Part shown: positions 23,185 to 59,574 of the stretch, piece by piece | Numbering within the stretch: position 1 is the first letter of the stretch | Layout: every line of letters starts with the position of its first letter | DNA from: an uncultured Alphaproteobacteria bacterium | GTDB taxonomy: Bacteria > Pseudomonadota > Alphaproteobacteria > RF32 > CAG-239 | Assembly: GCA_949282205.1 (NCBI GenBank) | Contig: CASDOS010000009.1 | Span: 1-64,000 of the forward strand | Length of the DNA: 64,000 bases | Direction: 5' to 3' | The notes under the pieces: generated by a model | Told to the model about the DNA's origin: nothing | What the model saw: the letters and a program-made list of their open reading frames with translations, nothing else | Databases searched by the model: none | Made by a program: the position numbers and the translations under genes

Positions 23185-23679
23185 CTAAGAAAGCAGTGCT
23201 TCAAACCACAAAGTGCGACGTTTATCAAGCGGAACGGACGCGTTCGCTGGACTGGTGGAAGGAAGAACCAAAAATTCTTTTTGCGCCAATAAATCAGGAT
23301 AAGCACGAGCAAAGAGTTTATAAGCGGTCTGCCCGTTAAAAAGCAGTCTGTCGATTTGCGGATAGAGCGAAAAGAGAGCACCAAAATCATTCGGCACCAC
23401 ATTTTTGATACGCGTATCGAGGCTTCCCTCGCGTATACAACTGTGCGCCGCGTCCCAAAGTCCGATATGATGTTGCAAGATAAAGCGTTTTTTGGCTTCG
23501 TATGACGGCGGATTGTCGAGATTAAAACTTTCGTCGAACGCCTCAAAGCAAAACCGCCAAAACAGATTGCGCGGATGAGCATAATACTGTTGAGCGTTAA
23601 GGGACGCCACTCCCGGCATAGAACCGATAACCAGCGTTTTCGTCTTTTCATCGGCAATATAATCAAAACTTTCAATCAT
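23185..23679 (-). CDS. Hypoxanthine-DNA glycosylase (UDG family 6)
   Basis: A 164-residue uracil-DNA-glycosylase superfamily protein. The N-terminal motif GSMPGVASLNAQQYYAHPRNLFW and the C-terminal LPSTSPANAS match family-6 hypoxanthine-DNA glycosylases, which excise deaminated adenine. Length fits the family. Its ATG (23677-23679) overlaps the TGA stop of the solenoid gene upstream (ATGA). It is therefore translationally coupled to that gene and is the last gene of a four-gene unit. The pairing with solenoid genes is unexpected and may be incidental. Confidence 0.85.
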   Translation of the reverse strand: MIESFDYIADEKTKTLVIGSMPGVASLNAQQYYAHPRNLFWRFCFEAFDESFNLDNPPSYEAKKRFILQHHIGLWDAAHSCIREGSLDTRIKNVVPNDFGALFSLYPQIDRLLFNGQTAYKLFARAYPDLLAQKEFLVLPSTSPANASVPLDKRRTLWFEALLS

Positions 23680-25652
23680 CTCCCATCCTTAGTAAAAAAT
23701 TTCCCGAAAAGACCACCTAAAGAAGTATTTTTTTGGGATTTAGAAACATCATCAAGCTCATCTTTAAAGCTAATCCGCCCTTTCCATTTCTTCGGCAACA
23801 CCAATTTGCTTTCTTCCGTCTGCGCCCGATTTTTAAAAATGAAATGCGCTTTTTTCGGCACTGTGGTTTCACTCAAATTCACTTCCGCGCATAACGAAAA
23901 ATCCATAACACATTCTGGAAGCGTTGCGATACTCAAATCCACCTTAGCGCCGTTTCGAAAAACCATATCCCGCCGGGCATTTAATATACAAAACTGCATT
24001 TTCACTTCCGAAAATTTGCTCCAATCAATATCGGAAGGTAGATTCTGTGAATATTCAAAATTCACCTTAGCCCCGTCTTTAAATTTTATGTCGCCAAGAT
24101 TTGCCCAATCCGCCCAACTCATATCCACCTCATCGGCGTTTGAAACGTCAATTGCCCCCGAAAATTCTTTAACATCCTGCAAATTAACTTTATGCGCATT
24201 AGCAAGATTAAGTCCGTTCACGCCATTAAGATTAGCGTTTTTCAATACCACTTCCGCACATTGTGATAAATCCATATCAGTAGGAAAATTTTTCCCAAAA
24301 CGAAAATTAACTTTGGCTCCTTTTTTAGGCTTAAGCGATTTGAAATTAGAAAAGTCGCAAGTATCCAACATCAATTCGTCACAATTTTCGACTCCAGACT
24401 CTTCGGTCAAAATATTCGTATATCCCATGGATTTTGCTATAATTTTCTTAGCGTTTTTAAAACAAGGATGCGGTTGCCGCGCCCAATCACATTGATAAAA
24501 ACGCACTTCCGCGCATTGAGAAAAGTCCATATTTTGAGGTAAATTTATCGCCCCGCTCAAATTAAGAATAACATTCGGAGCTAATTTAAGCGCATCATAA
24601 TCTTTCAAATCACAATTCGATAAATCCACTTCCGCACATTCGGAAAAATCAAGATTAGCGGGAAAATTTTGCGCAAAAACCAAGCTGATTTTCGCCCCAT
24701 TTCGAAACCGCATATGAGGTTGATTATGAAAGTAACACCCGACTGTAACAAGCTCCGAGCATTTTGAAAAATCAACATTTTCAGGAAAAGCACTAATATA
24801 GAGGGCTTCAAGTTTGCCCCCATCTTTAAATACAAGTTTCGTATCAGGTTCAAAATCGCATCCGGAAAAATACACACTATCAAAATAAGACAAATCCAAT
24901 AGCTTATCCATAAAATACTCATCTTTTTTAAAAAAGACCAATCGTTCATGCGCACACTTCCACGTTTCGAGCAAATCAACATCATTAACATCAACATAAA
25001 CACAAGAAGCCGTCGATAAATCCATATCACGTTCATAATCGCGCAAATTCGTAAAATAGACCTCGCAATTTTCGTTCGTTACAATTTTTTTAACCCCTTT
25101 AATACTCACCTGTTCAAAATCAACAGACGAACAATGCCGAGCCTCAATAATCGGCGGTAAATAGTCCATAAACTGAAATTTAAGATTATCTTTCCCCTCA
25201 TAGAAGAGCTTATCATAACCTTTCAAATCAATCTGTTCCAGCCTACAATCATTCGCGACATACACGCGCTCCGCGCGACTGGATGAAAGCAACAGCGTTT
25301 GTCCTTTTTTTTGACATATTTTATTGAATTCCACCCCAAAGCCGTTAGCGAGAGCCAAATCTTTACCCAAATCAAAAATCACCTGCGGTTGCTCACGTTG
25401 CGTAAAAGTCGCCAAAATGATTTCTTTAAATTGCGCCTGCTTGGTTTGAGGCAGTTCTTTAATACATTCGAGCATATGTTTAATATTAACGGGATTATTG
25501 GTAGATTTAAGGATTTGCATACAGACTTGAGGAGTAATCGGTTCTTTGGGAAGTCGCGATTTTTTATCAGGTGCAATCCTGCCCTTTTGATAAGGAATAA
25601 GGATATTTTCCACAGCGATAACGGATTTAAAATTTTCAATATCAACAAACAT
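23676..25652 (-). CDS. Solenoid family protein P1 (MFVDI family), 658 aa
   Basis: One of seven paralogs in the window. The N-terminal domain (residues 1-~115: MFVDIENFKSVIAVENILIP...VCMQILKSTN...MLECIKELP...FTQREQPQVI) is shared by all. The rest is a chain of about 41-residue repeats of two ~20-residue turns, here diverged: FPANLDFSECAEVDLSNCDL and LPQNMDFSQCAEVRFYQC. It ends in the family cap (FIFKNRAQTEES...WKGRISFKDEL). Regular L/V/D/C spacing suggests a beta-solenoid. There is no signal peptide, so it is probably cytoplasmic. It is third in a minus-strand unit P3-P2-P1-glycosylase, with a 13-nt gap to P2. Function unknown. Confidence 0.8.
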   Translation of the reverse strand: MFVDIENFKSVIAVENILIPYQKGRIAPDKKSRLPKEPITPQVCMQILKSTNNPVNIKHMLECIKELPQTKQAQFKEIILATFTQREQPQVIFDLGKDLALANGFGVEFNKICQKKGQTLLLSSSRAERVYVANDCRLEQIDLKGYDKLFYEGKDNLKFQFMDYLPPIIEARHCSSVDFEQVSIKGVKKIVTNENCEVYFTNLRDYERDMDLSTASCVYVDVNDVDLLETWKCAHERLVFFKKDEYFMDKLLDLSYFDSVYFSGCDFEPDTKLVFKDGGKLEALYISAFPENVDFSKCSELVTVGCYFHNQPHMRFRNGAKISLVFAQNFPANLDFSECAEVDLSNCDLKDYDALKLAPNVILNLSGAINLPQNMDFSQCAEVRFYQCDWARQPHPCFKNAKKIIAKSMGYTNILTEESGVENCDELMLDTCDFSNFKSLKPKKGAKVNFRFGKNFPTDMDLSQCAEVVLKNANLNGVNGLNLANAHKVNLQDVKEFSGAIDVSNADEVDMSWADWANLGDIKFKDGAKVNFEYSQNLPSDIDWSKFSEVKMQFCILNARRDMVFRNGAKVDLSIATLPECVMDFSLCAEVNLSETTVPKKAHFIFKNRAQTEESKLVLPKKWKGRISFKDELDDVSKSQKNTSLGGLFGKFFTKDGR

Positions 25653-25665
25653 TTATTTCCCCTTT

Positions 25666-27966
25666 TTATCTTCCGGCATGAGCTTTTGCCGCCTTCGCCA
25701 CCCCCCAAGCATCCTTAGCCAATTCATCGGCAAAAACAAGTGTTCCTTTCCAATCATCCGGCAGTTTTGCATGACTATTCAGCATCTGTTGACGATTTTT
25801 AAAAACCAACTTTTTCGCATGACTTAGGTCACAATCAGTAAAATCTATCCAAGAACACCTAGAAACATCCATATTTTCAGGCACATCGGTAACTTCTGTC
25901 ATATACACTCTCGCCCCTTCTCTAAAACACAGATGAGAAAAATTCCCCAATTCACACCGTCTAAAAGCCACATAATCACAATTAGAAACATCCAAATGCT
26001 GGGGCAAATTTTCCACACTCCATAACTCCACGCAAGCACCACATTTAAATGTCAAAAAAGAAAAATTACACAAATCAGAATTACTCAACGTCACATAATC
26101 ACAGCGAGAAAAATCAAAACTTGCCGGTAAATTTTTCACATAACATAACTCTATCGCTGCCCCATCTTGCAACTCAAGATAAGAAAGATCACTCAAATCA
26201 ACATCAAATAACAAAACATAAGCGCACTGAGATAAATCAAGATTTTTAGATAAATTTTGAGCCCTTACCAATCTAACCTTGGCACCATCTTTAAAGCGAA
26301 GATTAGGAAGTTCGCTTAAATTCCCCCCACTTAAATCCAGCTCATCACACTGAGACAAGTCAAGATTTTTAGGTAAATTTTGCGCCCCTCTCAATCTAAC
26401 CTTGGCACCATCTTTAAAGCGAAGATTAGGCTGTTCGCTTAAATTCCCCCCACTTAAATCCACCTCATCACACATGGAAACATCAAGATTTTTAGGTAAA
26501 TTTCGTACATTTCTTAACTCCACTCTAGCGCCTTCTTTAAAGCGAAGATTAGGAAGTTCGCTTAAATCACATTCACTTAAATCCACCTCATCACACTGAG
26601 ACAAGTCAAGATTTTTAGGCAAATGTTTAGCACTTATCAAAGAAACCTTAGCGCCATCTCTAAAATGGAGGCAATCAAGCTCTTTCAAATCGCAGTTATA
26701 TAAATTAACCTCAGAGCAGCACGACAAATCAAGATGTGAAGATAAATATTTCACATCGCTCAAATCAACCTTTGCGCCATCTTTAAAGCGAAGATTAGCC
26801 CAATACAAATTACATCCTTTTAAATCAACTTCTGCACAATTAGAAACATCCAAATTTCGAGGCAAATTCTTCATATATTGCAAAGTAACTTTTGCCCCGT
26901 CTTTGAAGTAAAAATGAGACACCTCTCTCAAATTACACCCGCTCAAATCCACTTCAGAGCACATAGAAACATCTAAATCTTCAGGTATGTTTTCCACATC
27001 ACGCATAGTAACCTTAGCGCCCTCTTTAAAACAAATATGAGCGACATCTCTCAAATCACAATCTTTCATTCGTACTTCTGCACAATGAGAAACATCAAGA
27101 CCTTTCGGAAACTTAGAGATATTACTGAAAATAACACGCATATCATCCGCTAATTTCATCTCTGTAACATCTGCAAAATCACAAGAAATAAATTCAACCG
27201 CTTTCCACTTGGAATAATCAGCAATTCCGGAAAAAGTTTTATTTTTATGAACTAATGTAAGTGTTTCGGGACGATATTTCCATTGAACAAATGCATACAA
27301 ATTATCCTCAGCAACTTTAACTTCCAGACACTCGGAAATATCCATTTTTTCAGGCAATGACACATCCAGCAGTTCAACCACGCCATTACATTTGATACAA
27401 TACTCACGTCCATTATTAAATTCAACATCTTTCAGCTTCAAACATTCCACATGAGGCGCAACAATATTCTGAGGCATAAACCGAATATAATTCATGGAGC
27501 GCTCTCCATAGCCGCAAAAGAATAATCCGTCATAACCATGTAAGTCCATATTATCAACATCCAAAAATGACGCCAAAAAGCGCATACACGTTGAACCGGA
27601 GAAAAAATAATCCCCCGTATTAGGCATTTTCTTTTTTTTCAATTCTTCAAGATAACCGGAATTTTCTGCCAATCTCTGTCCTAATTCAACAATAGCTTCC
27701 GGCTGCTCACGATTATCAAAGACAGCCAACACAACTTCTTTAAATTGTATTTGCTCAGCGTCAGGCAAATGTTGAATACACTCCAGCATATCTTTAATAT
27801 TGCGCGCGTAGTTGGTAGAACGCAATACAGTCATACAAACATCAGGAGTTATTTTTTCCTTTGGTAAGCGTAATTTTTTATCGGGTGCAAGCCTTCCTTT
27901 TTTATAGGGAGTTAAAATATTTTCAACTGCCAACGGAGATTTAGAATCAGTAATTTCAACAAACAC
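25666..27966 (-). CDS. Solenoid family protein P2, 766 aa
   Basis: It shares the MFVDI N-terminal domain (variant MFVEITDSKSPLAVENILTP). It carries about eleven tandem ~41-residue repeats from near residue 290, several nearly identical, for example LPKNLDLSQCDEVDLSECDL followed by SELPNLRFKEGARVELRNVR. It ends with the cap LVFKNRQQM...DDWKGTLVFADEL. It is the most regular member of the local cluster, and the 123-bp DNA repeats imply recent expansion. It lies 19 nt downstream of P3 and 13 nt upstream of P1. There is no signal peptide. The regular turns with inward-facing hydrophobics and Asp/Cys ladders suggest a right-handed beta-solenoid scaffold, but no fold is established. Confidence 0.8.
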   Translation of the reverse strand: MFVEITDSKSPLAVENILTPYKKGRLAPDKKLRLPKEKITPDVCMTVLRSTNYARNIKDMLECIQHLPDAEQIQFKEVVLAVFDNREQPEAIVELGQRLAENSGYLEELKKKKMPNTGDYFFSGSTCMRFLASFLDVDNMDLHGYDGLFFCGYGERSMNYIRFMPQNIVAPHVECLKLKDVEFNNGREYCIKCNGVVELLDVSLPEKMDISECLEVKVAEDNLYAFVQWKYRPETLTLVHKNKTFSGIADYSKWKAVEFISCDFADVTEMKLADDMRVIFSNISKFPKGLDVSHCAEVRMKDCDLRDVAHICFKEGAKVTMRDVENIPEDLDVSMCSEVDLSGCNLREVSHFYFKDGAKVTLQYMKNLPRNLDVSNCAEVDLKGCNLYWANLRFKDGAKVDLSDVKYLSSHLDLSCCSEVNLYNCDLKELDCLHFRDGAKVSLISAKHLPKNLDLSQCDEVDLSECDLSELPNLRFKEGARVELRNVRNLPKNLDVSMCDEVDLSGGNLSEQPNLRFKDGAKVRLRGAQNLPKNLDLSQCDELDLSGGNLSELPNLRFKDGAKVRLVRAQNLSKNLDLSQCAYVLLFDVDLSDLSYLELQDGAAIELCYVKNLPASFDFSRCDYVTLSNSDLCNFSFLTFKCGACVELWSVENLPQHLDVSNCDYVAFRRCELGNFSHLCFREGARVYMTEVTDVPENMDVSRCSWIDFTDCDLSHAKKLVFKNRQQMLNSHAKLPDDWKGTLVFADELAKDAWGVAKAAKAHAGR

Positions 27967-27985
27967 TTATCAATTCCTTTTACAT

Positions 27986-29056
27986 TTATGTCTTAGTTTT
28001 CATCTGCGCCATTGCCATCAAGTTCATAAAATCAAGTTTCTTTTGCTCATCAGCAAAAACGACTATACAATTATCAGCAAGTCGCAAATCATTTTTAGGC
28101 ATTTGCGCCCGATTTTTAAAAATAATTTGTTCAACTGTCGACAAATCACAATCATTCAAAACCACCTCGGCACATTGAGAAAAATCGAGTTTTTTGGGCA
28201 GATTGACAACCGCGGACATTTGAATCTGCGCACCTTCTGCAAACCGTATATCAGTAACGTCTTTGCAACTAAGCAGTTGGATATCCACTTTATGAAACAG
28301 CGACAAATCCACCTCTCCTTCCAAATCATCATAAGAGTAAAATGTCAACGCGTTGTGGGGATATTTCCAGCGTTCAAATTGCGCCTTATCATAGCAGCTT
28401 ACCCAAATCTCTTTACAAGCATCAATTTCGACATCATTTTCTAAATTCCACGATGAATCCAAACAAATTTTAGCCTGTTCGTTAGCGGCAATTTTGCGTA
28501 CACCTCGCATATTGCACCAAGACAAATCGACGGTTTGAGCATTTGGAAATTCCAATATTTCGGGAAATGGTCCATCCCCGTGAAAATACACATTCATAGC
28601 CATAGCTGACAGTTTATCATACGGTTTAAAATTCATATCACTCAATTGTGTCTCACGCGTCATCAACCCGCGCGCAAGTTTTGACGAAGAAAGCAAAAAA
28701 TCTCCATCTTTAATTTTCCGTGCCTCTTCAAATTCTCTTTCAAATCTGTTAGCAAGAGCCAAATTTTCACCCAAATCAAAAATCACCTGCGGTTGCTCAC
28801 GTTGCGTAAAAGTCGTCAAAACAACATCTTTAAACTTTGCCTGCTCGGAGGGAGGCAGTTCTTTAATACATTCGAGCATATGTTTAATATTAACGGGATT
28901 ATTGGTAGATTTAAGGATTTGCATACAGACTTGAGGAGTAATCGGTTCTTTGGGAAGTCGCGATTTTTTATCGGGTGTCACTCTGCCTTTTTGATAAGGA
29001 GTAAGGATATTTTCCACAGCGATAACGGATTTAAAATTTTCAATATCGACAAACAT
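27986..29056 (-). CDS. Solenoid family protein P3, 356 aa (short member)
   Basis: It has the full MFVDI N-terminal domain, a middle region like the other members (SLFHKVDIQLLSCKDVTDIRF), only one or two recognisable repeats (LPKKLDFSQCAEVVLNDCDL), and the terminal FKNRAQMPKN cap. It is the first gene of the P3-P2-P1-glycosylase unit and has its own family-type promoter (29088-29116). At DNA level its 5' ~200 bp is nearly identical to P1, and the next ~110 bp is nearly identical to P4, so the gene is a mosaic. Function unknown. Confidence 0.75.
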   Translation of the reverse strand: MFVDIENFKSVIAVENILTPYQKGRVTPDKKSRLPKEPITPQVCMQILKSTNNPVNIKHMLECIKELPPSEQAKFKDVVLTTFTQREQPQVIFDLGENLALANRFEREFEEARKIKDGDFLLSSSKLARGLMTRETQLSDMNFKPYDKLSAMAMNVYFHGDGPFPEILEFPNAQTVDLSWCNMRGVRKIAANEQAKICLDSSWNLENDVEIDACKEIWVSCYDKAQFERWKYPHNALTFYSYDDLEGEVDLSLFHKVDIQLLSCKDVTDIRFAEGAQIQMSAVVNLPKKLDFSQCAEVVLNDCDLSTVEQIIFKNRAQMPKNDLRLADNCIVVFADEQKKLDFMNLMAMAQMKTKT

Positions 29057-29087
29057 TTAAGCGCCTCATACAATTTGAGATACGAAA

Positions 29088-29116
29088 ATATTAGCATAAA
29101 AAAGGAAATTCAGCAA
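29088..29116 (-). promoter_or_regulatory. Solenoid-family promoter of P3
   Basis: Minus strand: TTGCTG (29111-29116), 17 bp of T-rich spacer ending TATGC, TAATAT (29088-29093). It is closely similar to the promoters of P4, P5, P6 and P7. Confidence 0.65.
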
Positions 29117-29135
29117 CAAGAAAAAACAAGCCCTA

Positions 29136-30350
29136 TCAATAATCTTTACCCAACATTTTACCGATAAATTTCCCCAAACGCTGCTTTATTTGAGACGAAG
29201 CCATTTCATCAGTAAACACCAGTTTCCCTTCCCAATTGTTTGGCAACTCCACACTGCTTTCCGTCATCTGCTGGCGATTTTTAAAAATCAGAGTTTCAAC
29301 CCCAGCCAAATTGGCTTGAGATAAATCAACCTCTTGGCACATAGAAACATCAAGATATTGCGGTAAACTACGAGCTTTGCCTAAATCGACGCTTGCGCCA
29401 TGCATAAATTTCAGCTCCGACAGATGACTCAACTTGCACCCCACCAGAGTAACCTCTGCGCAATTAGACACATCAAGATTATCAGGCAAACTCCGCGCCC
29501 ACCAAAAAGAAACCTTAGCCCCATCTTTAAAGCGAAGTTGCGTTTGTTCTTTTAATTCACACCAAGCAAAGTTTACATAAGAACACATGGAAACATCAAG
29601 ATTTTGCGGAAAACTACGAGCAACACTCAACCACACTTCCGCCCCGTCTTTAAATAAAAGCTGAGAGTATTCCGACAAATCACACCCTTCTAAGTGCACA
29701 CAACCGCACATGGAAACATCAAGTTGAGTAGGCAGATTTGTAGTTTCACCTAATTTGACTTTTGCGCCCTCTTTAAAGCGCACACTTTCGACCCTGGAAA
29801 AATCACACTTTTGAAGCCATACTTCTGAAGAATTGGGGAATTCCATTTGTTTAGGAAATTTCACATTTTGAGCAAATTTAATTATCTCATCGCTCAAACA
29901 AATCAATTTATCATATACGCTAAAATCCTGTTCGGCAAAAAATTTCTCTAAACTAATATAACATTTAACTTTTTGAGCGGAAGAAGACAAAAACTCTCCG
30001 TCTTTAATTTTCCGTGCCTCTTCAAATTCTCTTTCAAATCTGTTAGCAAGAGCCAAATTTTCACCCAAATCAAAAATCACCTGCGGTTGCTCACGTTGCG
30101 TAAAAGTCGCAAGCACGACATCTTTGAATTGAGCTTGTTCGGTTTTCGGCAATTTCCAAATACATTCAAGCATATCTTTAATATTTCTGGCATAGTTCGT
30201 CGAGTGCAAAATTTCCATACAGATATCAGGAGTGATTTTTTCTCTCGGCAAACGTGTTTTTTTATCAGGTGAAAGCCGCCCTTTTTTATAGGGTGTTAAG
30301 ATATTTTCCACCGCCAAAGGAGATTTAAAATCATCAATATCGACAAACAT
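29136..30350 (-). CDS. Solenoid family protein P4, 404 aa
   Basis: It starts at MFVDIDDFKSPLAVENIL (30350); a longer frame to 30389 has no ribosome site and would run through the promoter. The N-terminal domain is shared. About five ~41-residue repeats follow, such as LPTQLDVSMCGCVHLEGCDL and LPDNLDVSNCAEVTLVGCKL, and then the cap LIFKNRQQMTES...WEGKLVFTDEM. It is immediately upstream of the P3 promoter. Locus C of the dispersed repeat lies just upstream of its promoter. Predicted cytoplasmic; function unknown. Confidence 0.75.
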   Translation of the reverse strand: MFVDIDDFKSPLAVENILTPYKKGRLSPDKKTRLPREKITPDICMEILHSTNYARNIKDMLECIWKLPKTEQAQFKDVVLATFTQREQPQVIFDLGENLALANRFEREFEEARKIKDGEFLSSSAQKVKCYISLEKFFAEQDFSVYDKLICLSDEIIKFAQNVKFPKQMEFPNSSEVWLQKCDFSRVESVRFKEGAKVKLGETTNLPTQLDVSMCGCVHLEGCDLSEYSQLLFKDGAEVWLSVARSFPQNLDVSMCSYVNFAWCELKEQTQLRFKDGAKVSFWWARSLPDNLDVSNCAEVTLVGCKLSHLSELKFMHGASVDLGKARSLPQYLDVSMCQEVDLSQANLAGVETLIFKNRQQMTESSVELPNNWEGKLVFTDEMASSQIKQRLGKFIGKMLGKDY

Positions 30351-30408: not shown

Positions 30409-30461
30409 CAAGAAAAAACATCCGAATTCTCACCTCAACAAACTTCATAACTAAACGCCCC

Positions 30462-30650
30462 CTTTGGTGAGAAAATAAGAAGAGCTCGGCAATAAAGAGA
30501 TGGGGGGCGATTTTTAATCATACTCCGCCACAACATCCCCTTTGGTGAGGAAATAAGAATAGCTTGGCAACAAAGAGAGGTATTGCGATTTTTAATCATA
30601 CTCCGCCATAACTTCCCCTTTGGTGAGGAAATAAAGGAGTAAATGGCGAT
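30462..30650. repeat. Dispersed ~78 bp repeat, locus C (2.5 units)
   Basis: Units start at ccccctttggtgag (~30462), ccctttggtgaggaaataag (~30537) and cccctttggtgagg (~30616). They share ggcaa.aaagag, gcgatttttaatcatactccgcca and the ctttggtgagg box. The same type occurs at loci A, B and D. On the minus strand the units keep an open frame (SSPKG.LWRSMIKNR..SLC), resembling the peptide frame of loci B and D. Confidence 0.75.
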
Positions 30651-39087: not shown

Positions 39088-40455
39088 TTAAGCGACTGGA
39101 AAAGCCTTAGCTTTCACACTGAAGAAATGTTTTACACAAGTAAAGGCATTAGAAATCACATTAACCTGAGCAAGGGCAACAATTTCCACATTACCGGAAT
39201 TCAGCAACAATTCACGAAACTCTTCGTCAATTCCGCAACATTCGATATACGTTTGTATCATATCAATATTGCCTGTTTGAATTAACTTTGCCTTTTGCTC
39301 ATTCGATAAACAGTTGCCATTCAATAAAATTTTGAACAAATCTCTTTCCTCAAGCGCAACTATCGCATCAAATTCTTCATCAAAATAAAAATCAAAACGG
39401 TCAAAATAATACTCATAAACACAAGAATCAACTTCTCTGCACATCAGATATAGCCGATCAATATATTTGCGATAAACTTTATAGGCCTGAACTTCCTTAC
39501 GCTCAATAAGATATAAAGGACGAAAGTATTCAACCGCACGCCGTCTAAAATAAGTTATGTCAAGCTCACCCGCATCAGTATGTTCACAATACTTCTCTTC
39601 CAAAGCATAACCAAAATGCCTTGTCAAAAAAAGTCCTAGCATTTTCTCCAAGATTTCAGGTGTTCCATACTGAAAAAACAATGGGAAAAAATCTTGACGT
39701 CCTTCATAACGTAAGCAATAATACTTAAATACATCCTCATTCACGCAATAGATATCCCACCAATTTTTCTTAACCAATCCATAAAAGGTCTTGCGATAAA
39801 TTATAAAAATCGTATCATACATGTGGTGAATAATAAACCCACCATGATTGTATTCTTGCCAAACGGAATGAATACAACGTTTGACCAAATCATGAGTTTC
39901 ATTTTCAACCACTAGTAAAGCATCTTCATCAGAAACCTTTTCACCTGCCAGCATCCGCAAGATAATTTCTTTCCTTTTCCTTAGCTGATTTTTGAGTTTT
40001 TTCAAATTCTCATTAAACTGCTTGACTTTCTGTTCATCAGGTGAAAAGAAAGTGCATTCGCCCTCAACCGAAGTAAAAGGCTTTTTAACAAATATAACCG
40101 CCTGTTTGTCCGCAAGAGAGGCTGTTTTAGCATAAGCACCATTATCAAAGACATAAAATGGATAATTGATTGCGGTTCCGATATCGTTCAGATATTTTTT
40201 GAACCAATTAACCGTATTGGGCACCACCGACTTTTGCGTCCATTTTTTTTCAGTAACTTTAACTTCAGACAATTGAGCAATTTCAGCACTTGCAAAAAAG
40301 CATTTATCACTTTCGGCAAACGCACCTTTGACCACAAGACAAGCGTTCATCTTACCGCAAACGAAGGTTGAAGAAAAAGAGCCGTCTTCAAAAAAGTAGA
40401 AAGGATACCCGATGCATGCTCCGATATCGTTTAATTTTTGTTTTAATACATCCAT
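39088..40455 (-). CDS. Helical-repeat protein with duplicated YPFYFFEDG domain, 455 aa
   Basis: Residues 1-55 (LNDIGACIGYPFYFFEDGSF...NACLVVKGAFAE) recur at ~88-140 (LNDIGTAINYPFYVFDNGAY...AVIFVKKPFT), so a ~55-residue module is doubled. The rest is alpha-helical with ankyrin-like pairs: LIQTGNIDMIQTYIEC and LLNSGNVEIVALAQVN. It is a paralog of the 40633 gene, with shared promoter and downstream flank. There is no signal peptide. The module is not one I can name. Possibly a protein-interaction scaffold; function unknown. Confidence 0.65.
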   Translation of the reverse strand: MDVLKQKLNDIGACIGYPFYFFEDGSFSSTFVCGKMNACLVVKGAFAESDKCFFASAEIAQLSEVKVTEKKWTQKSVVPNTVNWFKKYLNDIGTAINYPFYVFDNGAYAKTASLADKQAVIFVKKPFTSVEGECTFFSPDEQKVKQFNENLKKLKNQLRKRKEIILRMLAGEKVSDEDALLVVENETHDLVKRCIHSVWQEYNHGGFIIHHMYDTIFIIYRKTFYGLVKKNWWDIYCVNEDVFKYYCLRYEGRQDFFPLFFQYGTPEILEKMLGLFLTRHFGYALEEKYCEHTDAGELDITYFRRRAVEYFRPLYLIERKEVQAYKVYRKYIDRLYLMCREVDSCVYEYYFDRFDFYFDEEFDAIVALEERDLFKILLNGNCLSNEQKAKLIQTGNIDMIQTYIECCGIDEEFRELLLNSGNVEIVALAQVNVISNAFTCVKHFFSVKAKAFPVA

Positions 40456-40632: not shown

Positions 40633-41589
40633 TTAAGCCGCCCCGACGATAGAACGAAGTTCTTTTCTTTCCGCATAAGTCAGCATATCACGCCATTGAT
40701 CAGACAGCCCTCTATTCTGAATAAATGTTTTGACCATATCGACGCTGCCATATTTCATCAAAAAGAACATCATATACCTATCTATGTTTTCATGACGAGG
40801 AACACTGTTTAGATAAACATTAAGCATTTCAACCGTCCCATATTGCACCACATCTTCAAATTCATCTCTATCATATAATCTACCGACATGCTTTCGATAC
40901 GCTTTATAAAGACTTATATCTTTTCGTCGCACAAACGCCGCTCCGTTCCTCCACAAATCTGAAGTGGTAGACCATACATACTGAATAAGCTCCGGTGCGC
41001 CATACCGATACAGAGAAAAAATGACCTCTTGCCCCAAATAAGCAAAATTATTTTTCGCATTGCCAAAAAAGTCTTTAATAATATCAACATGACCACCCTC
41101 AATTAACGCAATAACAGACTCAGGATAATCAAGCCCGATACGATTATCCTTTGACACCCAAAAGCGACCATCACGCCAATACTTTTGTTTCCAACAAGTA
41201 TCAATAAATTTTTTAACCATTTTGACATCGCCAAACTTAATCAAAAAGGCAATATCGTCATCTTCCGGACACCAACCGAGCGCCACAGAAAAAGAAATTT
41301 CACGAATTTTTTCAGCACGTTCTTTTTCTTCTTTTGATTGCGGTTCTTGAATTTTTTTATCATCAACCGCCGGCTGAACAGTAGCATCTGTTTCTTGAAC
41401 AACCTTGTTTGCTTTTGTTTCAACAAAAAAGCAATCGCCTGAAACATCAGCAAAAGGCTTTTTCACCACCATAATAGCGTTCATCTTACCATTGACATAA
41501 GACTTTGAGTAAGAACCATCTTCAAAAAAGTAGAAAGGATACCCGATGCTTGATCCGATATCGTTTAATTGTTTTTTTAATGTATCCAT
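40633..41589 (-). CDS. Helical-repeat protein with YPFYFFEDG domain, 318 aa
   Basis: A single N-terminal module (LNDIGSSIGYPFYFFEDGSY...MNAIMVVKKPFA) is followed by a charged linker (QEPQSKEEKERAEKIRE). About six ankyrin-like helical pairs follow, for example LIKFGDVKMVKKFIDTCW, LIEGGHVDIIKDFFGNAK and LMKYGSVDMVKTFIQNRG. It is a paralog of the 39088 gene, which has two modules. The promoter and downstream flanks of the two genes are also duplicated, indicating a tandem gene duplication. Probably cytoplasmic. Function unknown. Confidence 0.65.
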   Translation of the reverse strand: MDTLKKQLNDIGSSIGYPFYFFEDGSYSKSYVNGKMNAIMVVKKPFADVSGDCFFVETKANKVVQETDATVQPAVDDKKIQEPQSKEEKERAEKIREISFSVALGWCPEDDDIAFLIKFGDVKMVKKFIDTCWKQKYWRDGRFWVSKDNRIGLDYPESVIALIEGGHVDIIKDFFGNAKNNFAYLGQEVIFSLYRYGAPELIQYVWSTTSDLWRNGAAFVRRKDISLYKAYRKHVGRLYDRDEFEDVVQYGTVEMLNVYLNSVPRHENIDRYMMFFLMKYGSVDMVKTFIQNRGLSDQWRDMLTYAERKELRSIVGAA

Positions 41590-45925: not shown

Positions 45926-46149
45926 GCGTTATCCTTATTATTTTTTTATCCCGCCCTTGAGGAATAAGTAGAACAAAATAGAAACATTGTCAAGTTTTTT
46001 TTAAACAACTCACAAAAAAGTTGTATTTCGAAAGAGATAAGGAAGAACAAGTAATTTGCAGTTAAAAATTTCAACCATTTCGAAAGGAAAATGAGGCACC
46101 GCTAATTGCCCTCAAAAATACCCAAATATCTCGATGCAAACCGCAAGCC

Positions 46150-46467
46150 ATGAGCCGACCACCACAAACCATACACCCGCCGCAAGCTATGAGCCGACTG
46201 CCACAAACCATACACCCGCCGCAAGCTATGAGCCGACTGCCACAAACCATACACCCGCCGCAAGCCATGAGCCGACCACCACAAACCATACACCCGCCGC
46301 AAGTTATGAGCCGACTGCCACAAACCACACACACGCCGCCGCAAGTTATGAGCCGACCACCACAAACCATACACCCGCCGCAAGTTATGAGCCGACTGCC
46401 ACGAACCATACACCCGCCGCAAGTTATGAGCCGACTGCCACAAACCACACACCCGCCGCCGCAAGTT
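46150..46467. repeat. 39-bp tandem repeat, eight units
   Basis: The unit atgagccgactgccacaaac plus catacacccgccgcaagyt starts at 46150, 46189, 46228, 46267, 46306, 46348, 46387 and 46426, with a broken copy at 46468. Units are 39 bp except two of 42 bp with an extra gcc. Both lengths are multiples of three and lack stops, so several frames are open on both strands (13-residue repeats such as MSRLPQTIHPPQA or CGGCMVCGSRLIA). Two variants (gactgcc / gaccacc) alternate irregularly. It lies between the stop of the 46479 gene and the start of comM. Confidence 0.9.
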
Positions 46468-46478
46468 ATGAGGTTATC

Positions 46479-55321: not shown

Positions 55322-57139
55322 TTAAGACCTACCGCCAAGAGTTTTAGCGGACATTGCCAAACCTAAAGCAGGAGGTTCTGGTTGTTCATCAGTAAACACA
55401 AGTTTTCCTTTCCAATCATCAGGAAGTATGGCATGACTTTTTTTCATCTGCCCGCGATTTTTGAAAATCAACTCTTTAACGGAGCTCAAATTTCCCCCCT
55501 CTAAGTTTACTTCTGCGCAAGAAGAAAAATCCATATTTGGCGGTAAATTATCCGAATTACTCAAATCAACCTTTGCCCCTTCTTTAAAACGAAGATTAGG
55601 TTGTCCGCTCAAATCACATCCATCTAAATCCACTTCATCACAGCAAGATACATCCAAATTTTCCGGTAAATTTTTGGCTTTGTACAAAATAACTTTAGCC
55701 CCATCTTTAAAACGAAGATTAGGTTGAGAGCTCAAATCGCATCCTCTTAAATCAACCTCATCGCAGCAAGACACATCTATATTTGCCGGTAAATCTTTTG
55801 CCCTGCGCAACTTAACCTTAGCACCGTCTTTAAAGCGAAGATGAGGCTGTTCACTCAAATTGCAGTAACTTAAATCAACCTCATCACATATAGAAAAATC
55901 AAGATTTGGCGGTAAATTATCCGAATCACTCAAATCAACCTTTGCCCCCTCTTTAAAACGAAGATTAGGTTGTCCGCTCAAATCACAAGATCTTAAATTA
56001 ACCTCTGCACATTGAGAAAAATCAATATCTTCCGGTAAAAATTCAATATTCTCCAAATGAACACTTTCAACATTACCCAAAAACAATTCATATAAGGAAT
56101 CCATATCACTACCATAAATACTAACCTTCTTACAATGAGAAAAATCAACATCTGATGGAATGTCCTGTACATTACCTAAAATGACCTCAGCCCCTTCTGC
56201 AAAAACTAAATCAAAACGCTCATCCTGCTCATCATCATCATCATCCTCCTCCTCATCATCATAGTCATCATCATAGTCATCATCATAGTCATAATAGTCA
56301 TAATAGCCATCACCATAACATTTCAAACTGCAATTAGATAAATGAAGTTCTGCACATTGAGAAAAATCAAAATTATGAGGCAACTCAAACAACTCATCAC
56401 CTGTTCTTCGTATTATGCAATGGATGGTAACTTTCGCCCCCTTTTTAAAATGCCATGCACCATAAGAAGTGAAATAAGTACTATGAATACCCACCTCATC
56501 ACACATAGAAAAATCAATATTTGCAGGTAAATTTTTCGCCACTTTCAAATTAACCTTTGCGCCATCTTTAAAGCGAATACTTTGCACGCCTTGCAAATCA
56601 CACCAATTAAAATTCACCTCATCACACTTAGAAACATCCATATTTTTCGGAAACTTCACATCTTCGCCAAATTGGATTTTCTCATGGCTTAAAAACACCA
56701 CTTTATCATACGCGCTAAAATCTTCATCTTTAAACTCACTTTTAAGACACATAAAGCATTTCCGAACATTGGCATCAGAAAATAAATAGTATCCGTCTTT
56801 AATTTTTTTAAGTTTTGCAAATTCTATCCCATAGCCGGATTTTTCGGCTATTTCTTGTCCTAATTGAAGAACATCTGCTGATTGCTCACGATTATCAAAG
56901 GTGGAGAGCACGACATCTTTGAATTTCGCCTGTTCCTCATCCGGCAATTTAGCAATAAGTTGGAGCATATTTTGAATACAACGCGGATGGTTTGTAGATT
57001 TAAGAATATCAAGACACACTTCCGGCGTCAGTTTCTCTTTCGGTTGTCGCACACCTTTAACAACCACGCCTTTATCATACGCCATCAAGATATTGGCAAC
57101 TTTCAAAGGTGTTTTAGGATTTTCAATATCTACAAACAT
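55322..57139 (-). CDS. Solenoid family protein P6, 605 aa, with Asp/Glu-rich insert
   Basis: Its N-terminal domain (MFVDIENPKTPLKVANILMA...PKEKLTPEVCLDILKSTN) belongs with P7. Repeats at both ends are regular, for example LPANIDVSCCDEVDLRGCDL and SSQPNLRFKDGAKVILYKAK. They are interrupted near residues 276-305 by a run of Asp, Glu and Tyr (YDDDYDDEEEDDDDDEQDE), encoded by trinucleotide repeats at 56224-56312. The cap is LIFKNRGQMKKS...WKGKLVFTDEQ. The C-terminus and 3' flank are almost identical to those of P7, so the two genes are a tandem duplication. Function unknown. Confidence 0.8.
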   Translation of the reverse strand: MFVDIENPKTPLKVANILMAYDKGVVVKGVRQPKEKLTPEVCLDILKSTNHPRCIQNMLQLIAKLPDEEQAKFKDVVLSTFDNREQSADVLQLGQEIAEKSGYGIEFAKLKKIKDGYYLFSDANVRKCFMCLKSEFKDEDFSAYDKVVFLSHEKIQFGEDVKFPKNMDVSKCDEVNFNWCDLQGVQSIRFKDGAKVNLKVAKNLPANIDFSMCDEVGIHSTYFTSYGAWHFKKGAKVTIHCIIRRTGDELFELPHNFDFSQCAELHLSNCSLKCYGDGYYDYYDYDDDYDDDYDDEEEDDDDDEQDERFDLVFAEGAEVILGNVQDIPSDVDFSHCKKVSIYGSDMDSLYELFLGNVESVHLENIEFLPEDIDFSQCAEVNLRSCDLSGQPNLRFKEGAKVDLSDSDNLPPNLDFSICDEVDLSYCNLSEQPHLRFKDGAKVKLRRAKDLPANIDVSCCDEVDLRGCDLSSQPNLRFKDGAKVILYKAKNLPENLDVSCCDEVDLDGCDLSGQPNLRFKEGAKVDLSNSDNLPPNMDFSSCAEVNLEGGNLSSVKELIFKNRGQMKKSHAILPDDWKGKLVFTDEQPEPPALGLAMSAKTLGGRS

Positions 57140-58920: not shown

Positions 58921-59420
58921 CCCCTTTGGTAAGGAAAATAAAGAAGCTCGTCAACAAGAGAGAAAATCCGCGCGTTACATCTCAAACTCCGCCCCACAAA
59001 GAACTAAAGTAAGCGAGTGCAAGCACCCCAAGTTGCCCAAAGCTCGGCAAAGGAATACGACTTTGCGATTTTTAATCACACACCGCCACAATGCCCCCTT
59101 TGGTGAGGAAAATAAAGAAGCTCGGCAACAAGAGAAAAAATCCGCGCGTTGCACCCGAAAGTTCTCCCCACAAAGAACTAAGTCAACGGGTGCAAGCACC
59201 CCACTTGCTTACCGATACGCCTCAAAGTCCACGGCAAAAATGTAAAAAGCACGCGCGTTGCGCCCGAAAGTTCTCCCCACAAAGAACTAAGTCAACGGGT
59301 GCAAGCACCCCACTTGCTTACCGATACGCCTCAAAGTCCACGGCAAAAATGTAAGAAGTCCGCGCGTTGCACCCGAAACTTCGCTCCATAAAGGACTAAG
59401 TCCACGGGTACAAGTACCCC
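58921..59420. repeat. Dispersed repeat locus D with nested 109-bp direct repeats
   Basis: Two long units start with ctttggtraggaaaataaag (58924 and ~59098). Inside and after the second, a 109-bp unit recurs, with cgcgcgttgc at 59143, 59252 and 59361, each followed by acaaagaactaagtcaacgg. The ctttggtgagg box and the ggcaacaagag and gcgatttttaatca motifs tie it to loci A-C. The region 58768-59574 holds no credible gene. Confidence 0.8.
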
Positions 59421-59574
59421 AAGTTGCCCCTATTTTTGCAATGGGTGGGATAAAGGGTGGTGCTATTGTTAAATCAGACAACGCGGTGTACAAACCACAA
59501 AGCACCTACCCGCTTACCAGTACACCCCAAAGTCAACGGCAACAAGTTGCCTTTAGCACGCCCCCTCACCCCTA

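Follow-up and report, generated by a model that had tools for sequence, protein, structure and literature searches.

Probable exchange of N-domains between paralogs in a genus-specific family of LRR-like proteins from an uncultured alphaproteobacterium

The seven genes P1 to P7 found in the DNA analysed here (the window: 64,000 nt, positions 1-64,000 of contig CASDOS010000009.1, assembly GCA_949282205.1, from an uncultured Alphaproteobacteria bacterium of RF32; CAG-239) belong to a genus-specific paralogous family and all lie on the minus strand. Comparison of sequences within and between genomes points to intragenomic recombination between paralogs, mostly in the N-domain and atop stable orthologous bodies, with a probability that we put at about 0.85. 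The identity tracts found between otherwise diverged paralogs were sharp-ended and went beyond chance, the pattern by which gene conversion is recognized. The topology changed between segments of one gene, a single history being rejected by AU tests, and the LRR-like bodies were stable orthologs between species, under purifying selection.

The family and its predicted architecture

The genes P4, P3, P2 and P1 followed one another head to tail, separated by 79, 19 and 13 nt (Table 1), and the 3' end of P1 overlapped by 4 nt the next ORF (23185-23679), which we take to be glycosylase-like. P6 and P7 were alike also upstream of the ATG (90% over 50 bp), as expected for a recent tandem duplicate, and P6 carried an acidic insert rich in Asp and Tyr, lying over a short tandem repeat (56220-56292). 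A second paralogous pair was seen in the window on the minus strand (39088-40455 and 40633-41589), in which an N-terminal segment of 59 aa was 63% identical and the remainder 25%; this segment was found again inside the first protein. Tandem arrays were present at 46141-46472, 59136-59421 and 30459-30634, with units of 39/120, 109 and 78 bp, respectively, and a match of 88-93%.

Table 1. Family genes of the window and stretches shared among P1, P3 and P4 (nt counted from the ATG of each gene)
Feature	Coordinates	Strand	Remarks
P1	23676..25652	-	658 aa; exchanged N-domain and LRR-like body without close ortholog
P2	25666..27966	-	766 aa; member of the P1-P7 family
P3	27986..29056	-	356 aa; orthologs by position and by body in two sister species; likely donor
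P4	29136..30350	-	404 aa; start set at the MFVDIDD methionine, 30350
P5	47158..49602	-	814 aa; member of the P1-P7 family
P6	55322..57139	-	605 aa; family member, adjoins P7
P7	57241..58707	-	488 aa; member of the P1-P7 family
P1 nt 1-288	25365..25652	-	tract common to P3: nt 1-205 96%, nt 243-288 100%
P3 nt 1-205	28852..29056	-	counterpart of the P1 tract (25448-25652)
P3 nt 242-363	28694..28815	-	counterpart of the P4 tract; 122 nt with 2 mismatches
P4 nt 242-363	29988..30109	-	tract common to P3
P3 nt 243-288	28769..28814	-	identical in P1 (25365-25410) and P4 (30063-30108)
20-bp patch in P3	28104..28123	-	exact match to P1 23821-23840

Searched with a profile of the seven N-domains, the genome carrying the window (G000; 1.98 Mb) gave 43 matches at E<=1, 36 of them below 1e-40 and located on ten contigs. 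Within the order, the family was present in eight of 153 genomes and in one of the 17 genera searched, and a pattern-based search of genome contigs returned 28 loci, all from uncultured Alphaproteobacteria. For the comparisons below, 108 N-domain hits including fragments were gathered from six genomes, among them those of two sister species (G010 and G008) and a further sister genome (G006), with one genome per species; several of the genomes compared were drafts, in which family genes lie at contig ends. Truncated copies with little beyond the N-domain were seen in G000 (L031 at C39:16424, 107 aa; L021 at C23:8946, 135 aa; L024 at C23:66410, 143 aa), and are either decayed genes or donors.

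No family match was detected in the phages, plasmids or viral contigs searched, and a phage or plasmid origin was rejected on this basis. None of the seven proteins matched the defence-system models, the two tested against PHROGs gave no match, and NCBIfam returned solely matches under its cut-offs. A link to secretion systems was also discarded, as a VirB4 family was present in 15 of 18 genomes of the genus, with and without the LRR-like family, and was thus uninformative. The family was not named in the published literature found with the terms searched, and none of the libraries searched (Pfam, defence-system models, NCBIfam and PHROGs) offered a model that fits it.

LRR proteins are solenoids in which each repeat of about 20-29 residues contributes one strand. 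The model of P4 (pLDDT 92.5) had six helices in residues 11-113 followed by strands every 20-21 residues, in keeping with such a solenoid. From this model, each protein is predicted to consist of a small all-helical N-domain (about residues 1-115) and an LRR-like solenoid with repeats of approximately 20.5 residues. The P4 body could be aligned with LRR proteins (best VIA Z 12.7 over 251 residues, rmsd 5.4), and it shared the LRR-type solenoid with YopM, SspH2, SlrP and internalins (VIA Z 10.8-11.9, 241-266 residues, rmsd 5.2-8.9). These were structure matches only: with the P4 model no Foldseek hit had an E below 0.001, no similar sequence turned up among PDB entries for E values up to 10, and a common fold does not reveal function. 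No curated LRR model was passed, the only hit being PF00560 in P6 with 15.8 bits against 20.6; therefore, the proteins are called LRR-like by fold and not Pfam LRR. The gathering score of the pentapeptide repeat model PF00805 was exceeded by one of the seven proteins (P2, 22.9 against 20.2), with no single stretch being significant. Neither F-box, BTB nor U-box was matched in Pfam by the seven proteins, and no hydrophobic leader was apparent by eye. The model of the P3 N-domain (pLDDT 86.2) gave weak generic helical-repeat matches alone (Foldseek best E 1.5, VIA Z at most 7.2), so that no clear structural relative of this domain emerged from the Foldseek and VIA search.

Identity tracts and segment trees among P1, P3 and P4

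The near-identity of the 5' regions of P1 and P3 that the original prediction had pointed out was confirmed, as only eight mismatches were found in nt 1-205 and none in nt 85-205 (121 bp exact). Beyond this limit, 12 of 37 positions differed in nt 206-242, none of 46 in nt 243-288 and 31 of 77 in nt 289-365. The block shared by P3 and P4 amid divergence was also found as described, except that it had been placed about 6 nt off in P4: compared with the two mismatches inside the tract, which contained 109 bp exact (28707-28815 = 30001-30109), 57 of 205 nt differed upstream and 33 of 57 downstream. The stretch identical in all three genes (nt 243-288) had gone unmentioned. At conserved codons, synonymous differences amounted to 0/36 between P1 and P3 in nt 91-204, and between P3 and P4 to 1/39 inside the tract versus 20/45 upstream. 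The likeness ended at the ATG, the upstream flanks of 50 bp of P1, P3 and P4 being just 30-40% identical.

The GENECONV-type check that had been proposed was carried out as a permutation test, to which 35 of the 41 family hits in the own genome contributed their N-domains (595 pairs; fragments and weak hits were left out). The tract was globally significant for P3/P4 (p 0.001), P1/P4 (p 0.011) and P1/P3 (p 0.021), and ten of the 595 pairs exceeded the global 95% limit. With third codon positions alone, three of 595 pairs were significant, P3/P4 among them (p 0.009), whereas P1/P3 and P1/P4 lost significance.

Trees of separate segments, constructed with a selection of 32 rows (30 for the third, nt 366-470), placed P3 with P1 and its G010 ortholog in nt 1-205 (96/79), with P4 in nt 243-365 (99/92) and with its own two orthologs in nt 366-470 (95/89). 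In AU tests, for which the groups were picked after the identities had been seen, the first segment rejected P3 with P4 (p 0.0049) and P3 with both of its body orthologs (p 0.0008), whereas the third rejected P3 with P4 (p 3.2e-5) but kept P3 with P1 (p 0.152). A simple tree-like history, the outcome that was to speak against exchange, was thus not what was seen, as the partner switched between segments and the AU tests rejected a single history.

Fronts and bodies across the family

Comparison of 89 longer genes between species yielded 41 pairs with reciprocal-best bodies (at least 60% aa identity and at least 70% coverage). Twelve of these pairs had a lower identity in the N-domain than in the body, and the body ortholog was the best match of the N-domain in just 25. 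The fraction of identical codons at conserved residues was lower in the N-domain than in the body in 34 of 41 pairs (Wilcoxon 2.3e-5, although pairs share genes and are not independent); the difference was significant (p<0.01) in eight pairs, and in none in the reverse direction. The ratio of dS in the N-domain to dS in the body, calculated by hand from the dN/dS count table, was at least 2 in ten pairs and at least 4 in six, with a maximum of 9.4, whereas three pairs showed the reverse pattern, with the dS of the N-domain at most half of that of the body. In all 41 pairs the body had an omega of 0.19-0.58. Positive selection on the bodies, which high codon identity combined with lower aa identity had suggested, was rejected because omega was below 0.6 in every pair.

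Among 82 full-length genes from four genomes, the nearest relative of the N-domain was in the same genome for 30 by DNA or 26 by protein, compared with five for the body. The discordant genes were distributed 28:3 in favour of a within-genome N-domain (p 4.6e-6), or 22:1 when proteins were used on both sides. Concerted evolution is therefore partial, as 52 of the 82 N-domains still had their nearest relative in another species. Taken with the AU tests and the dS contrast, this clustering within species bears out the prediction that recombination between paralogs homogenizes the N-domain.

Near-identical tracts were listed by BLAST (at least 50 bp and at least 94% identity), a list that misses P1/P3, whose extended alignment is under 94%, and in which self-overlaps of neighbouring flanks in the own genome were left uncounted. 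There were 19 tracts in G000, 17 in G010, five in G008 and three in G006, of which 13, 15, two and three, respectively, were within the first 380 nt, although some of the G010 rows were pieces at contig ends that may be assembler overlaps. Altogether, 33 of 44 tracts fell in the N-domain, while the first 380 nt represent 22-26% of the coding length; the two of five tracts in G008 go against a restriction to the N-domain. A tract of 176 bp and 98.9% identity was seen in the repeats of two distant genes (nt 2101-2276 of G000 C23_18390 and nt 1339-1514 of P6), so that exchange is not limited to the N-domain. A general rule of exchange between neighbours was rejected, as enrichment was found in G000 (p 0.0036) and G006 (p 0.047), but not in G010 or G008.

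Direction of exchange, rival explanations and meaning

At this locus, P3 is, from the sequences compared, the gene with orthologs. Both G010 and G008 had a counterpart of its body at this locus (83% and 76% aa, respectively), whereas the bodies of P1, P2 and P4 gave no match above about 52%. The G008 ortholog carried a different N-domain type, with 64-73% nt identity to P3 over segments of nt 1-288, but was 85% identical over nt 366-480. In nt 243-288 the G010 ortholog was 93% identical to P3 and the next relative 76%. Of the 108 hits, 95 had a profile score >120, and among these the FERE junction motif (nt 289-365) was confined to P3, its two orthologs and P4. As orthologs exist for P3, this gene appears to be vertically inherited and is more likely the giver to P1 and P4. 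P3 is thus probably the donor, and P1 and P4 the recipients.

The original prediction had P3 as the recipient, a mosaic of P1 at the front and P4 in nt 242-363. The partner switch along P3 is real, and P3 differs from its G010 ortholog at 10 of 37 positions in nt 206-242 and 17 of 77 in nt 289-365, compared with 18 of 205 in nt 1-205, so that it may itself have received sequence; P3 as donor leaves the origin of nt 206-242 unexplained, and a transfer from P4 to P3 may be an alternative, as the nt 243-365 tree is compatible with either direction. Nevertheless, a front that groups with the G010 ortholog, with P1 beside it, a FERE motif solely in P3, its orthologs and P4, and bodies of P1 and P4 without comparable orthologs make P3 an unlikely recipient. 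A quite different account, in which P1, P3 and P4 arose by tandem duplication and purifying selection preserved their N-domain as the bodies diverged fast, agrees with their being neighbours and with an N-domain omega below the body omega in most pairs. Such duplication was rejected on the synonymous contrast, which contradicts it for the P3/P4 tract; with one tree excluded by AU, N-domain dS above body dS in orthologs and 5' flanks that are unrelated, we regard it as scarcely credible.

Misjoins of short reads between family repeats could also produce mosaics, and the draft state of the genomes, other contigs that end in family genes and the 100% pieces of 117 and 141 bp at contig ends of G010, which look like assembler overlaps, are in line with this. 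However, the blocks are internal to a long contig, two differences are present in the P3/P4 tract, separate N-domain tracts occur in the sister genomes (292 bp at 98% in G006 and 353 bp at 97% in G010), and the dS contrast between N-domain and body extends over many genes, which renders an assembly artefact highly improbable. The prediction had further likened the family to those varying an antigen or a specificity through the repeat part. A large recombining family with truncated N-domain copies (143, 135 and 107 aa) would suit silent copies that feed an expressed gene and change its exposed part. The part exchanged is, however, mostly the conserved N-domain and not the diversifying one, no expression site or silent cassette was identified, and the bodies are conserved orthologs between species while the N-domain turns over; antigenic variation therefore has very little to commend it.

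Under recombination between paralogs, the favoured explanation, stretches of about 50-350 bp are copied repeatedly from paralog to paralog, mostly within the first 365 nt or so, with the bodies staying in place. P1 would have received nt 1-288 and P4 nt 243-363, both from P3. Presumably, the mechanism is ordinary homologous gene conversion, acting on sequences that share about 70% identity and contain short patches of near-identity. Now and then, a crossover may delete or fuse neighbours: a G010 gene (L057, C17) follows P3 up to the common 20-bp patch and then continues with the tail of P1, a fusion that points to crossover besides conversion. On visual inspection, a tail similar to that of the G010 fusion is carried by the G008 gene from the corresponding end of the locus.

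To our knowledge, the PE/PPE proteins of Mycobacterium tuberculosis are unrelated to the window family. Their genes are alike in forming a large family with conserved N-domains and reported recombination (PMC4770551). Rhs genes have a core with C-terminal tips that are displaced by acquired tips (PMC2935791). The two parts of the gene have decoupled histories in both cases, but in Rhs it is the variable C-terminal tip that is displaced, whereas the window family keeps the body and paralogs overwrite the front. The nearest published parallel found is that of the NEX1/PEX families of Parachlamydiaceae, with an F-box, RING/U-box or BTB N-domain plus LRRs (PMC4209131). These are likewise lineage-specific expansions with a conserved small N-domain followed by LRRs, and in NEX1a the part most often called recombinant was the N-terminal F-box, although no F-box model matched the seven window proteins. 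In that study, recombination was not found to play a convincing part, and an effect of purifying selection could not be ruled out (PMC4209131); in the window family, the dS contrast separates the two.

The family is therefore a clean natural case for telling recombination from selection among bacterial paralogs, because the synonymous divergence of front and rear differs up to 9.4-fold in the same orthologs, and it addresses the confound that had been left for the comparable Parachlamydiaceae families (PMC4209131). It is also a warning that trees built from the N-domains of such families fail to reflect the history of the genes.

The architecture tentatively suggests that the N-domain may meet one shared partner, so that exchange among copies would be tolerated or favoured, while the bodies may bind different targets. 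As the N-domain has no clear structural relative among the structures searched, its binding partner becomes a testable question. Equally conjectural is a genus-private repertoire that comprises up to about 40 adaptor-plus-LRR proteins and whose new helical adaptor would be kept in step by gene conversion, because all copies would have to fit one common partner. If this were true, each LRR body would be a conserved, separately maintained binder, and the family would be a bacterial counterpart, in logic, of the F-box/LRR repertoires.
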